Source: Halomonadaceae bacterium T82-2 (lineage in GTDB: Bacteria; Pseudomonadota; Gammaproteobacteria; Pseudomonadales; Halomonadaceae). Taken from it: DNA of 64,000 nucleotides. The notes beneath the pieces are model-generated. The model was given only the letters and a program-made list of their open reading frames with translations, was not told where the DNA came from and did not search any database. Positions within the stretch are counted from its first letter, which is position 1, and each line of letters opens with the position of its first letter. Shown in pieces: positions 13,836 through 26,840 of this stretch. Position numbers and translations under genes: made by a program. The stretch lies in NCBI GenBank assembly GCA_001577635.1, contig LSBP01000013.1, positions 1-64,000 on the forward strand. Direction: 5' to 3'.

Positions 13836-14220
13836 ATGTTGACCACCCGATTCGCCTTGCCGCGTCTCGTCACGGCCACCGCCCTGACGCTTTCCGTGGT
13901 TCCCCTGACGGCCTCGGCTCAGGAGCAGTCCACCGCCCAGGAACAGACCACCAGCCAGGACCAGGCGCGGACCGGCACCCAGGCATCCGACTCCCAAGAG
14001 CAAACCGCCAACCCGGATCAGGCCGCCACCGCACAAGACCAGGCCAGCGGGCAGGCATCGAACGCTCAGGCCGACGAATCCGTCGGCCCACCGATTCCGC
14101 TGGTCCCCGAAAAGCCGACTTGGGACAGCTTCCACGGCCAGCTCAATGCGCAGAAGTACAGCCCGCTCGATCAGATCACGGCCGATAACGTCGGTGATCT
14201 CGAGAAGGTCTGGGAAATCC
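13836..14220 (+). pseudogene. PQQ-dependent sugar dehydrogenase, 5' fragment (interrupted by mobile element)
   Basis: N-terminal part of a periplasmic quinoprotein dehydrogenase of the glucose/quinate/shikimate family. It contains a signal peptide (residues 1-28, ending TASAQ), a Gln/Ala/Thr-rich low-complexity linker (about 29-78) and the family start PTWDSFHGQLNAQKYSPLDQ, continuing to VGDLEKVWEI. At 14220 the reading frame runs into the mobile element and stops at 14243 after eight foreign residues. The frame resumes exactly after the right target duplication at 26841: removing the element and one copy of the 8-bp repeat restores codons reading W-E-I-H-T-G-D. The repaired protein would be 706 aa. 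The start is preceded by GAGGAG. Confidence 0.95.
14213..14220. repeat. Left target-site duplication GGAAATCC
   Basis: Perfect 8-bp direct repeat with 26833-26840, flanking the mobile element immediately outside its terminal inverted repeats. Eight base pairs is the usual duplication length for ISL3-family elements. Confidence 0.97.
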
Positions 14221-14242
14221 GGGTATCCGGATTAAGTGGTTG
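14221..14242 (+). repeat. Terminal inverted repeat, left end (IRL)
   Basis: Matches the reverse complement of 26811-26832 at 20 of 22 positions; the first 14 bases (GGGTATCCGGATTA) are identical, and positions 15-16 differ. Confidence 0.96.
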
Positions 14243-14268
14243 ATGGGCCTTCCAGCCCCATCCAACCC

Positions 14269-15080
14269 TTAGTCCTTCCAGAAGGTTGATAGATCGACAC
14301 CGAAGTTCTTCTCAGGCTCGGGGAGTCCCATGTTGTAGGTCATGGTGGCTCTGCCCAGAAACGGGGATTCCTTGACTTGTGGCGCCTTCTTCTTGTGCTT
14401 GGTGGTATAGAGCATCCGGGCTCGCATTACCTCGAACGAATAGCCCCGGCCATCACGGTTTTTGTCCTTGGCTAGGCGGTTTATCGACTACGTGAAAGCG
14501 TTGGTGATCGGGATGTCGGTCTCAAAGTAGGTCAGCATCTCTTCACGCCAGCCACTGACGGCGCTGACGAGATCCTTCCAAACCTCCTTCTGCCCCTGAG
14601 GGATGTTGTCAATCCAGGTGGCGAGAGCCTGTTCGGCACCACGCCGATTGGTACAGTCCCAGATATGGTAGAAGCGCTCCTTGTGCTCGTAAGCCGCCAA
14701 GAGCTGGGGGGAATGCTCCTGTCCAGGTCTCCATGATGAGCCGTTCGCGGTCTGAAACGTCGTGAGCGCGCTTCAGCAGGATTTTCCGGTCACCTTTGAG
14801 GGTCCGGCGCTGATTGGGCTTCAACTCCTTCCTTAGGCCTTTGCGGATCTTCTCTAAGGCCTCGTTGGCCATGCGCACGACGTGGAACTTATCGACCACG
14901 ATACGGGCCTGTGGCAGCACCGTCTGGAAGGCGCGGCGGTAGGGCTTCCACATGTCCATGCTGACGATCTCGACCTGGTGGCGGTTGGCCATGCTCATGA
15001 GGCGTCTTGTCACCCTCTCTTGCTGACGACCGGGTAGCAGGTCCAGCAGGGTGCGCTCTTCCAGATTGGTTAGGATGCAG
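14269..15080 (-). pseudogene. tnpA: Decayed ISL3-family transposase, left copy
   Basis: Remnant of the same transposase that is intact at 21739-23040, aligned from its stop (TAA at 14271-14269) up to the segment CILTNLEERTLLDLLPGRQQ. Three lesions are visible relative to the intact copy: a nonsense change (GAG to TAG at 14490-14488, after ITNAFT), a +1 frameshift in a run of six G (14706-14711; five in the intact copy) and loss of about the N-terminal 170 residues, with homology ending abruptly near 15080. It cannot make an active enzyme. The adjacent left inverted repeat is preserved, so it can still serve as an end for a transposase supplied by the second copy. Confidence 0.95.
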
Positions 15081-15207
15081 CAGAGCCCTTGGCAGCAGTC
15101 GTGCATCAGGAACGTACAGCTGGCTCATGAAGGCGTGCCGCCTTATCAAGGCCCAGGACGCGCCTATTCCGGAAGTCAAGCATGCGATAGCGAAGACGCT
15201 AGGCGAT
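15081..15207. other. Unassigned spacer between tnpA remnant and lspA
   Basis: A 127-bp stretch that replaces the missing 5' part of the transposase gene. It has no similarity that I can recognise to the intact copy or to other genes here; it probably marks the deletion or rearrangement junction. Confidence 0.5.
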
Positions 15208-15729
15208 TCAGCGGCGGCGGCTGCCTGGTTGATGTCGTATTTCCGCCCAAATAAAGAGGGCGACACCGAGGAAGATCCATACGTCCGCTAGGTTGAACGA
15301 TGGCCAGTGCCACTGGGCATAGTGAAAATCGAGAAAATCCTCTACGTAGCCTAACCGCAAGCGATCTGCGACATTGCCCAACGCGCCGCCGAGGATCGCA
15401 CTGAGGGCGAGCCGATAACTCAGTACGCGTGGTGAACGCCAAAGCCAGTACACCAGTAATATCGAGATAACCAGGGCCAGTCCGATGAAAAGCGGCTGCT
15501 GCCAACCGCCGACATCCGCGAGAAAGCTGAAGGCCGCCCCCGTATTGTGGCGGTGGACCCAATTGAAGAAGGGTGCGGCAGGCACGCTTTCACCATGCGC
15601 TAGCATGGTGCTGGCAAGGTACTTGCTCGCCTGATCGACAAACAGTAACAGGAGCGAGAGCCACAGCCAGCGCATCGCCTTTCCCGGCTCGTGGGCTTTC
15701 TCTGCGAGCCGACTGCCATAAGTAGACAT
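15208..15729 (-). CDS. lspA: Lipoprotein signal peptidase LspA (transposon passenger copy)
   Basis: Inner-membrane aspartyl protease that cleaves prolipoprotein signal peptides. The 173-aa protein has four hydrophobic helices and both catalytic aspartates in the conserved contexts GNVADR (D122) and FNLADVW (D149), plus HNTGAAFSF (61-69). It should therefore be active. The ATG at 15729 follows AGGAGG at an 8-nt distance; a TTG at 15750 is less likely. It is a second-copy gene carried by the mobile element rather than the chromosomal lspA, which normally sits between ileS and fkpB. It lies 53 bp downstream of lnt on the same strand, consistent with one passenger operon starting at the CDF gene. 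Confidence 0.95.
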   Translation of the reverse strand: MSTYGSRLAEKAHEPGKAMRWLWLSLLLLFVDQASKYLASTMLAHGESVPAAPFFNWVHRHNTGAAFSFLADVGGWQQPLFIGLALVISILLVYWLWRSPRVLSYRLALSAILGGALGNVADRLRLGYVEDFLDFHYAQWHWPSFNLADVWIFLGVALFIWAEIRHQPGSRRR

Positions 15730-24878: not shown

Positions 24879-26520
24879 ACTCAACGTGAGCGGCATGACC
24901 TGTGACCGCTGTGCGGATCATGTCAGGGAAGCCTTGGAGAAGCTGCCCGGCGTGCAGTCGGTGGAGGTATCCTATCCTCAGAGGACGGCATCGGTAGCCG
25001 TTGATCCGGGGACACCGGCCTCGGCGTTGACGTTTGCCGTGACCCGACTTGGCTACCAAGCTCGACTGGCCAACAGTGGGCCCACTTCCCCGGCAGGCGC
25101 ATCGGTGTCCAAGGGCCGTGATGAAGACGCCCCGCACATCGCGGTGATCGGCAGCGGCGGCGCCGCCATGGCGGCGGCCCTGAAGGCCGCCGAGCGCGGC
25201 GCCCGGATCACCCTGATCGAACGCGGCACCGTCGGCGGTACCTGTGTCAATACAGGCTGTGTGCCTTCGAAGATCATGATTCGCGCGGCCCATATTGCCC
25301 ACTTGCGTACGGAAAGTCCCTTCGATGCAGGCCTGAGCGCCCAGGCGCCGGTGGTGGATCGGGCCAAGCTGCTCGAGCAGCAGCAGCGACGTGTCGAGGA
25401 ACTGCGTGACGCCAAGTACGAGGGGATTCTGCGCGACCACCCGGCCATCACTGTCCTGCACGGCGAGGCCCGGTTTATCGATGCCCATAGCCTGATGGTC
25501 AAGCTGAACGAGGGCGGCGAGCAGGTCGTCCACTTCGACCGCGCCTTCATCGGTACTGGCGCCCGACCGGCAGTACCGCCGATCCCGGGTCTTGCCGACA
25601 CCCCCTACCTGACCTCTACCAGTGCTCTGGCCCTGGACACTCTTCCCGAGCGGCTGATTGTGATCGGCGCCTCGGTGGTGGCCCTGGAACTGGCCCAGGC
25701 CTTCGCCAGGCTGGGCAGCCGGGTCACGGTGCTGGCCCGCAGCCGCCTGCTCTCCCAGGAAGACCCGGCGGTAGGGGATGCGGTGGAGGCGGCGTTTCGC
25801 CGCGAGGGCATCGAGGTCCTCAAGCAGACCCAGGCGAGCCGTGTGGACTACACCGACAATGAATTCATTGTCGACACCAACGCCGGCACCTTGCGGGCGG
25901 ATCAACTGCTGGTGGCCACCGGACGGACACCCAATACCGAGGCCCTGAACCTGGCGAGCCTCGGCGTGGAAACCGCACATGGGGCTATTCTGGTCGATGA
26001 GCATCTGCACACCACGGTGCCGGGGCTCTATGCCGCCGGTGACTGCACCGATCAGCCGGAGTTCGTCTATGTCGCCGCCGCCGGGGGCAGCCGGGCTGCC
26101 GTCAACATGACCGGGGGCGAAGCCACCCTGGACCTGAGCGCCATGCCGGCGGTGATCTTCACCGACCCCCAGGTGGCCACCGTCGGCCTGACGGAAGCCG
26201 AGGCCATCGAGCAAGGCTTCAGCGTCGATACCCGTGAGCTGGACCTGGAAAACGTGCCGCGTGCGCTGGTGAATTTCGACACCGGTGGTTTCATCAAGCT
26301 GGTGGCCGAACGCGACTCGGGCCGGTTGCTGGGGGTGCAGGCGGTGGCGGGGGAAGCCGGTGAGCTGATCCAGACGGCGGTGATGGCGCTACGCGCACGC
26401 ATGACCGTACACGACATCGCCAATGAGCTGTTTCCCTACCTGACCATGGTGGAAGGGCTCAAGCTCTGTGCCCAGACTTTCACCAAGGATGTGACGCAGT
26501 TGTCCTGCTGTGCCGGGTGA
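24871..26520 (+). CDS. merA: MerA, mercuric reductase
   Basis: NADPH-dependent flavoenzyme of 549 aa that reduces Hg(II) to volatile Hg(0). Domains: N-terminal HMA domain with GMTCDRC (C11, C14); FAD-binding start [21 protein letters not shown] (90-110); redox-active disulfide [12 protein letters not shown] (C125, C130); NAD(P) domain around [21 protein letters not shown]; dimerisation domain; and the C-terminal vicinal cysteines CC (546-547) that receive Hg(II). Complete in length. The ATG at 24871 overlaps the preceding gene. All catalytic residues are present, so resistance to inorganic mercury is expected. No merB (organomercurial lyase) is present. Confidence 0.97.
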
Positions 26521-26601
26521 ACGATATGAGCGCGACCGTGGTGCCACTGGGCGGCGGCACCACGGGTTTTGGGCATGGACACCACAGGGAGCCCTGTCAC
26601 G

Positions 26602-26736
26602 ATGAACACGACACTACCAGATTGCGGGATGATGGGGGCGATGGGCTGGATAATGCCAGTGATCGGAATTGCCCTACTATTGCTACTGGTCCTGGGCATC
26701 GCCTGTTTGGTGAAGTATCTGCTCTCTAGCAAGTGA
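26602..26736 (+). CDS. 44-residue membrane protein at the end of the mer operon
   Basis: A short ORF, MNTTLPDCGMMGAMGW followed by a long hydrophobic helix (about 17-38) and LVKYLLSSK at the end. It begins 81 bp after merA. One Cys (C8) and Met/Gly-rich residues precede the helix; a second Cys (C34) lies inside it. It has the size and shape of small membrane peptides found after metal-resistance genes but shows no match to MerE that I can recognise. Coding status is inferred from good start, composition and position; function unknown. Confidence 0.6.
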   Translation: MNTTLPDCGMMGAMGWIMPVIGIALLLLLVLGIACLVKYLLSSK

Positions 26737-26810
26737 GCGTACTCAGCGAGCCATCAACCAGCTAATCCGTTGTGGGTTGAGTTTGTCGGCCACCTTTCGC
26801 TCTCGCATAC

Positions 26811-26832
26811 CAACCAGATAATCCGGATACCC
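26811..26832 (-). repeat. Terminal inverted repeat, right end (IRR)
   Basis: Reverse complement matches the left repeat at 20 of 22 positions. The region 26737-26810 just inside is non-coding. Confidence 0.96.
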
Positions 26833-26840
26833 GGAAATCC
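26833..26840. repeat. Right target-site duplication GGAAATCC
   Basis: Second copy of the 8-bp duplication found at 14213-14220. Confidence 0.97.

Follow-up and report, generated by a model that had tools for sequence, protein, structure and literature searches.

A 12.6-kb ISL3-family element of Halomonadaceae bacterium T82-2, very probably a compound of an ISPpu12-group cargo element, a captured segment and a mercury transposon

Background

The closest described relatives of the element reported here belong to the ISL3 family of insertion sequences (IS), in which single elements with metal cargo are already known. Two copies of ISPpu12 flank dehI/dehRI in the DEH composite transposon (PMC12060670), and in Pseudomonas putida W619 mer genes lie beside ISPpu12 in what its authors called a 'possible composite mercury resistance transposon' (PMC3056050). 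ISPst2 and ISPs1 are ISL3 elements of about 2985 bp (PMC6305408, PMC3960245), and the published inverted repeats (IRs) of ISPst2 are GGGTATCCGGAATTTCTGGTTGAT. Circular intermediates are described for ISL3 elements, with ISPst9 cited as a confirmed case (PMC3812183). In Halomonas ZM3 the MER+CZC region of plasmid pZM3H1 is a truncated Tn3-family transposon with tnpS/tnpT resolution and merRTPABDE (PMC3606827). The element described here occupies positions 14221-26832 of a 64,000-nucleotide stretch of Halomonadaceae bacterium T82-2 (positions 1 to 64,000 of contig LSBP01000013.1, assembly GCA_001577635.1), which is called the window below. An earlier note, made from the sequence alone, had taken it for a complete metal-resistance transposon caught inside a sugar dehydrogenase gene. 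We consider it very probable that 14221-26832 is an ISL3-family, ISPpu12-group compound transposon built from three parts, namely an ISPpu12-group cargo element (module A), a captured segment with ccdA and peroxiredoxin (prx) genes, and a mercury element.

Results and discussion

Ends of the element and the interrupted gene

The stretch 14221-26832 is bounded by IRs and by a perfect 8-bp target duplication, and it lies within a gene for a pyrroloquinoline quinone (PQQ) dehydrogenase. The features at its ends are as follows.

13731..14220, + strand: 5' portion of the interrupted gene for PQQ dehydrogenase, its start codon uncertain (restored frame, TIGR03074)
14213..14220, no strand: left 8-bp target duplication GGAAATCC (sequence search and frame restoration)
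14221..14242, + strand: outer left IR, end of module A (20/22 against the right IR)
26811..26832, - strand: right IR, common to the compound and the mercury transposon (IR comparison)
26833..26840, no strand: right 8-bp target duplication GGAAATCC (sequence search and frame restoration)
26841..28576, + strand: 3' portion of the interrupted gene for PQQ dehydrogenase (restored frame, TIGR03074)

On the + strand of the 64-kb window GGAAATCC occurs at 14213-14220 and 26833-26840 only, and its reverse complement was not found in the window. The 22-bp outer IRs are identical at 20 of 22 positions, with GGGTATCCGGATTA exact at both ends, and this identity was attained by none of 200,000 random pairs of 22-mers drawn from the window. 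When 14221-26832 and one copy of the duplication were removed, a single stop-to-stop frame of 862 codons spanned the join. Thus the repeats, the duplication and the restored dehydrogenase frame are all as the earlier note had reported them. The two pieces of the interrupted gene, searched apart, matched TIGR03074 with E values of 4e-147 and 6e-9; neither match attained the curated cut-off, as would be expected of gene fragments. TIGR03074 is the membrane-bound PQQ-dependent dehydrogenase, glucose/quinate/shikimate family. When an 801-bp query for the empty site was compared with 14 genomes of the same genus, the strain's own included, the uninterrupted site was present in nine (L143, L146-L153), with alignments through the junction at 78-88% identity, of which only that of L143 spans nearly the whole query. 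The insertion was present in two (G000, G011), and the query had no match in three (G002, G004, G013). The earlier note had looked to relatives for an empty site, which these nine have, and for dehydrogenase halves separated by different DNA, which was not seen in these genomes, G011 having the same insertion as the window.

Three inverted repeats and two transposase genes

The earlier note had overlooked a third IR copy at 21691-21712, which is oriented like the left end and divides the unit, as well as a second transposase, truncated and frameshifted, at about 14275-15079. Because of this internal IR and the transposase remnant the unit is not one elementary transposon. It is complete as an ISL3-family element, and to that extent the earlier note was right, but it combines two ISL3 elements and a captured ccdA-peroxiredoxin segment in one compound, and this anatomy is well supported. 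The right part, 21691-26832, is a complete mercury ISL3 transposon with these features.

21691..26832, no strand: complete mercury ISL3 transposon, 5,142 bp (solo copies with perfect duplications)
21691..21712, + strand: internal left IR of the mercury transposon (19/22 against the right IR)
21739..23061, - strand: intact ISL3 transposase, 440 amino acids (NF033550 above cut-off, PF01610 E 5e-65)
23119..23565, - strand: merR, 57 bp upstream of the transposase and co-directional with it (TIGR02051 above cut-off)
23571..23600, + strand: putative mer operator/promoter with a dyad (sequence)
23639..23989, + strand: merT (annotation of a 99.96% identical copy in Halomonas HAL1)
24003..24299, + strand: merP (TIGR02052 above cut-off)
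24302..24559, + strand: merF, first copy, HAL1-annotated start (NF033565 above cut-off)
24633..24878, + strand: merF, second copy (NF033565 above cut-off)
24871..26520, + strand: merA, mercuric reductase, HAL1-annotated start (TIGR02053 above cut-off)

The IR pair of the mercury element itself is identical at 19 of 22 positions, and the outer pair is slightly better. The motif at 23571..23600 is what we take to be the mer operator, and the gap of 57 bp between merR and the transposase gene recurs in the copies of the mercury element that were compared. The right transposase scored 302.8 bits with NF033550, for which the cut-off is 180, and it was also above the cut-offs of PF01610 and PF14690; its match to HTH_Tnp_ISL3 was below the cut-off of that family. 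The mercury transposon travels alone as well as within the compound. Solo copies in Halomonas (HAL1, M20, shengliensis) and others are about 96-100% identical to 21691-26832, and that of HAL1 is 99.96% identical and has the duplication GAAAATCA. In a transposase search of genome contigs at least 577 relatives were confirmed and 78 loci were kept, and the mercury element was present in 15 of these 78 (L043-L056, L061; L043 is Halomonas sp. M20). Among the matches listed, a perfect 8-bp duplication flanked a unit of 5,133-5,143 bp in 11 of the 15. At L049 and L061 the contigs that carry the mercury element are short and were assigned to a Dehalococcoidia metagenome-assembled genome and to Scrofimicrobium; contamination or misbinning seems likely there.

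The left part, module A, has the following features.

14221..19941, no strand: module A, ISPpu12-group cargo element without a right IR of its own (solo copy in Stutzerimonas zhaodongensis)
14275..15079, - strand: ISL3 transposase remnant with about 171 N-terminal residues missing and an internal frameshift (tblastn segments in two frames; DDE_Tnp_ISL3 on both pieces)
15208..15750, - strand: lspA, signal peptidase II (TIGR00077 above cut-off)
15783..17360, - strand: lnt, apolipoprotein N-acyltransferase (TIGR00546 above cut-off)
17517..18278, - strand: ZIP-family metal transporter (PF02535 above cut-off)
18421..19341, - strand: cation diffusion facilitator (CDF), czcD-like, N-terminal HMA match just below cut-off (PF01545 above cut-off)
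19361..19383, - strand: putative CadR-type operator of the CDF promoter, TTGACCTTATGGTGGCTATATGG (sequence comparison)
19416..19850, + strand: cadR, Cd/Pb-responsive MerR-family regulator (TIGR02047 above cut-off)

Family matches thus bear out the genes that the earlier note had named (ISL3 transposase, lspA, lnt, ZIP, CDF, cadR and mer), with merT recognised only through the annotation of the 99.96% copy. The left transposase is 86% identical to the right one. Over the aligned parts the DNA of module A is about 82-83% identical to that of copies annotated as ISPpu12. Its cadR product shares 80.6% identity with the regulator found in one copy of ISPpu12, and a homologue of that regulator is said to have been named TnpR. 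Module A is found alone in S. zhaodongensis (L003, 3001-8841), where it is 5,841 bp long and has its own right IR and the duplication AAAATAAG; G012 has another copy, the right end of which is uncertain. When 1000 bp of the transposase region were compared among the window, S. zhaodongensis, G090, G105 and THAF12, a set that does not include G011, there were no differences. Since the dead transposase is identical in these five copies, it would have died before they were dispersed, and module A would have been moved in trans. The strain's own genome has two further lspA genes, one on contig C5 and one on C2 inside an ISPpu12-type element, as well as a further lnt at C2 to which that of module A is 39% identical, and therefore the lspA and lnt genes of module A are extra copies. 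The ISPpu12-type element on C2 (L211, 3852-7223) is 3372 bp long, has the duplication CGTCCCGA and lies just before the lnt at C2:157421.

Between the two ISL3 elements lies the captured segment.

19942..21690, no strand: captured spacer with ccdA and prx, lying between module A and the mercury transposon (comparison of copies)
20008..20730, - strand: ccdA/DsbD transmembrane-type gene (PF02683; 83% copy elsewhere, in G012:C11)
20880..20902, + strand: putative CadR-type operator in the peroxiredoxin promoter, TTGACCTTATGGTGGGTATAAGG (21/23 against the CDF operator)
20949..21584, + strand: peroxiredoxin, AhpC/TSA with C-terminal 1-Cys Prx domain (PF00578, PF10417; PRK13189 above cut-off)

Related ccdA-prx pairs are 83-84% identical in G012 and G003 and less so elsewhere. 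At L034 and L036 the pair adjoins a gene for a MerR-family regulator and one for a heavy-metal P-type ATPase, and at L037 it adjoins the ATPase gene; the families of these neighbours were checked for L034 only, where the ATPase exceeded its subfamily cut-offs and the regulator reached none of the curated cut-offs shown. The possibility that ccdA-prx is original cargo of the element was rejected, as related pairs sit beside regulator and ATPase genes without IR bounds. What speaks against so clean a separation is the presence of an ISL3 IR at a distance of about 4.6 kb in L034 and of 3.4 kb in L037; near the pair of L036 there was no ISL3 IR within two mismatches.

Insertion sites of the compound and its probable movement as one unit

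Judging from its insertion sites the compound moves as one unit, because it is found at three sites with three different perfect duplications, and in this the proposal of the earlier note that an ISPpu12-like cargo is joined to a mer operon in one unit holds good. Besides the window, with GGAAATCC, plasmid a of Halomonas THAF12 has the compound with ATTATTTT on both sides, IS256 copies having entered it later, and G105 has it with ATTTTTTT on both sides. Two more copies were rejected as independent insertions: that of THAF12 plasmid b, whose left end is cut at an IS256 copy and whose right flank is that of plasmid a, and that of G011, which is at the window's own site with the same octamer. 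The earlier note did not know the element as described; we found no paper on the compound or on the mercury ISL3 element in open-licence literature, ISfinder and subscription journals lying outside the search, but copies were already deposited on the THAF12 plasmids. The deposited gene table of THAF12, which is incomplete, names genes and no element. If the mercury element had landed by an old remnant of module A and were alone mobile, the two halves would be chance neighbours, and the mercury element is indeed complete and moves alone in many genomes. However, its own flanks differ (GTTAAGGC on the left, GGAAATCC on the right) whereas the outer pair is perfect at three sites, and the empty site is without both halves. 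On the three outer duplications we rejected this explanation, which is hardly credible.

A probable order of assembly and a proposed mechanism

G090 holds 14221-21690 at 98.9% identity, and the match ends exactly at 21690, the base before the inner IR, with no mercury element after module A and the spacer. A tRNA-Leu gene ends 31 bp before the segment, and the native DNA is found again after about 10.4 kb. The insert of G090 (L141, about 5433-15861) is formed by module A, ccdA-prx and about 3 kb more. The DNA downstream of the segment in G090 was not found beside a mercury element in 275 genomes of the family. Going by these comparisons, the G090 form is a probable assembly intermediate. It could instead be a derivative of the full compound from which the mercury element was lost; G090 is the sole genome of this form among the 275, there is no right-hand IR within two mismatches in 18 kb of it, and the segment is part of an insert that replaces intergenic DNA. 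We consider such a loss unlikely, though it deserves to be kept in mind, as the break is exactly at the inner IR, where the target of an insertion is expected, and a scarless end-to-end loss of an ISL3 element would be unlike what adjacent deletions leave.

With G090 as an intermediate, the course of events may have been that a non-autonomous module A with a dead transposase lost its right end and was fused to the captured ccdA-peroxiredoxin segment, and that an autonomous ISL3 mercury transposon, oriented as module A is, then inserted after prx. The transposase of this mercury element would act on all three IRs, and by pairing the right IR of the mercury element with the left one of module A it would move the 12.6 kb whole, perhaps through a circular or other transposition intermediate, with duplication of 8 bp. 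With its inner left IR intact, the mercury part of 5.1 kb should still be able to leave alone.

Several points weigh against this reading. The movement of the compound is inferred from insertion sites, of which only three are known, and the compound is rare, being present in 3 of the 275 genomes of the family. Its junction was found in 1 of 390 genomes of a sample of the order, which is the window's own (8 of the 390 match at all, mostly on the mercury side), and a sample of the class gave 1 of 369, again the window's own genome. Among plasmid records 460 of 72,556 match somewhere and two, both of THAF12, match at 80% of the query or more, and the junction pattern had no match in a collection of viral contigs. 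The duplication made by the insertion of the mercury element itself is not recoverable, the octamers at its two ends being different. Of the 15 mercury loci listed, L046 and L049 have no duplication, L061 is interrupted by a contig end and at L050 the duplication flanks a larger unit only; the mercury copies of Paracoccus albus and PA16-9 are also without duplication. The sixth copy of module A that was compared, that of G012, has 6 gap positions in the transposase region, and the G090 form could, as said, be derived rather than ancestral. Module A may not necessarily confer resistance, because the published CZC module of ISPpu12a gave, in the cited passage, no Cd, Co or Zn resistance in the strains tested (PMC4447125). 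Finally, the lnt-ZIP region (16300-18300) exists in two alleles that are 93.7-94.7% identical, one in the window, G090, S. zhaodongensis and G012 and the other in THAF12, G105 and G011, yet the window and G011 share their site. The presence of two alleles among the copies of the compound means that homologous recombination has also reshaped them.

When G011 was compared with the window in 500-bp bins, the left flank (10.5-14.2 kb) was 99.6-100% identical and the right flank (26841-28595) 93-96%, and other bins outside the element ranged from 79 to 100%. The insertion common to the window and G011 may thus have been shared by recombination between two lineages. Had the compound spread mainly in this way or by plasmid transfer, and not by transposition of its own, one would expect a shared site with unequal flanks as in G011, two lnt-ZIP alleles and a single right flank on both THAF12 plasmids. 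What makes this improbable as the main route is that THAF12 and G105 have the compound at different sites with different perfect 8-bp duplications, which is as expected of a compound that transposes as one unit.

A putative CadR-type operator before the peroxiredoxin gene

In the window, G011, G105, G090 and THAF12 the peroxiredoxin promoter is TTGACCTTATGGTGGGTATAAGG. It is TTGACCTT(A/G)AAGTTnnCTTnAAnG in 15 genomes (G002, G003, G006, G009, G012, G013, G047, G054, G083, G089, G102, G124, G177, G190 and G206) and at locus L059, and neither form is present at the peroxiredoxin of L079 and L083; the promoters compared are those of the well-matching loci numbered L033 upward, which are a part of the family genomes. 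The peroxiredoxin operator is identical to the CDF operator of the element at 21 of 23 positions, and no shuffle gave a match to the CDF operator within three mismatches. Both operators are named for their appearance, which we take to be that of a CadR box. An IR-like match at 20893 was rejected as a fourth IR, as it falls within this operator of the peroxiredoxin promoter. Compared to the S. zhaodongensis and G012 copies the CDF operator is changed at three positions, and compared to S. zhaodongensis CadR is changed at 23 of 144 residues, 10 of which are in the first 50. We infer from these changes that CadR and the two operators have come to match, and CadR would now also control the peroxiredoxin. 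There is a real possibility that the operator arose by chance or convergence and that no regulon was rewired. The native peroxiredoxin promoters compared carry a MerR-family-like TTGACC at the same position, so few changes would be needed, the changes in CadR are scattered over the protein, and its action at the peroxiredoxin operator is a prediction from sequence. However, the match to the CDF operator is one for which the shuffles give an expectation of 0, and the CDF operator and CadR have both changed, with the peroxiredoxin operator being of the changed type. A peroxiredoxin gene brought under CadR is the explanation that we prefer.

Related unions and what they may mean

Unions of mer genes and ISPpu12-type cargo arose elsewhere too. 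At L050, in Salinicola corii (6236-12993), a union of 6,758 bp with the perfect duplication GATTTGGA consists of the mercury element and an ISPpu12-type CDF-cadR half, with the two right IRs outermost. At L073, in Aliidiomarina sanyensis (3125-11348), an ISPpu12-type element of 8,224 bp with the duplication AATATTAG has a Tn3-type mer fragment between lspA and the transposase gene (tnp). Another union is that at L058, in Carnimonas nigrificans (3935-20702), where a compound of 16,768 bp with the perfect duplication AAAAAACG consists of ISPpu12 and an ISL3 element of the arsenic-cargo type, with two large unnamed open reading frames (ORFs) between them, and the arsenic-type element is 98.7% identical over 7.1 kb to that of L059. 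Close relatives of the transposase carry arsenic genes (acr3, arsH, arsJ; L059) or a chromate transporter (L068), with tnp last, and at L064 an unnamed membrane protein follows an ArsR-like gene, judged by eye, again with tnp last.

In 37 of the 78 kept loci the ORF upstream of the transposase gene was looked at; L070 has none, and in the other 36 it is on the same strand as the transposase gene. The ORF-bearing loci, grouped by hand, make up about eleven cargo types (mer/merR, ars/ArsJ, chromate, lspA-CDF, Tn3-type merR and others), but many of them are near-identical copies and so are not independent. Our guess is that there could be read-through from metal-controlled operons into tnp; a scan for sigma-70 promoters found 1 where 4.4 were expected, which gives no support either way. 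That the ISL3 group at large builds multi-metal units stepwise, re-tunes captured promoters to its own sensor and, through read-through into a tnp that comes last, has metal-driven mobility is a generalisation we regard as quite doubtful.

The assembly of large resistance transposons is usually guessed from their end products. In this case public genomes contain the parts, a form that is probably half-built (G090) and, at three sites, the finished compound, which makes the order of assembly testable. It is this visibility of the compound's assembly that is unusual, and what is said of function is predicted. The findings suggest that a disabled cargo element can regain mobility when an adjacent element has ends compatible with its own, and that genes, once captured, may come under the metal sensor which the element itself carries.

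Comparison with known systems

The terminal IRs are of the GGGTATCCGGA type found in the ISL3/ISPpu12 group, and the 8-bp target duplication of this group is present at three sites. Mercury transposons of the Tn3 family have a Tn3 transposase, 38-bp IRs and a 5-bp duplication; this element has 22-bp IRs, an 8-bp duplication and an ISL3 transposase and is not one of them. Neither is it a classical composite transposon with two near-identical complete IS copies at its ends, since the left transposase is truncated and the right element has mer cargo, although the outermost ends are used for movement of the whole unit, as the three outer duplications indicate. Module A is not ISPpu12 itself, which is 3372 bp long with an intact tnp, lspA, CDF and regulator genes and both IRs; in module A tnp is dead, lnt and ZIP are extra and the right IR is gone.

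What the element has in common with ISPpu12 and ISPpu12a (ISL3, 3372 bp) is the transposase family, the type of terminal repeat, the 8-bp duplications seen with 3372-bp copies, the cargo of lspA, CDF and a MerR-type regulator, and tnp as the last gene. It differs in having lnt, ZIP, ccdA, peroxiredoxin and a whole mercury transposon in addition, a dead tnp in module A, a length of 12.6 kb and three IRs. In the DEH transposon, as in the window, two ISPpu12-group ends mobilise the DNA between them, but those ends are two almost identical ISPpu12 copies, whereas the window fuses two different elements, one defective and one with mer genes (PMC12060670). In W619 mer genes likewise adjoin an ISPpu12 copy, but according to the cited passage they are beside a Tn3-type transposon and other remnants (PMC3056050). 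ISPst2 and ISPs1 share the GGGTATCCGGA type of IR, the 8-bp duplication and the presence of passenger genes, which in ISPst2 are an ArsR-type regulator and a permease, but each is described there as a single element with other cargo. The MER+CZC region of pZM3H1 also combines mer and czcD cargo in a mobile element of Halomonas, but it is of the Tn3 family and has different transposition machinery (PMC3606827). The solo mercury ISL3 transposon, unlike the compound, is without module A and without ccdA-prx.

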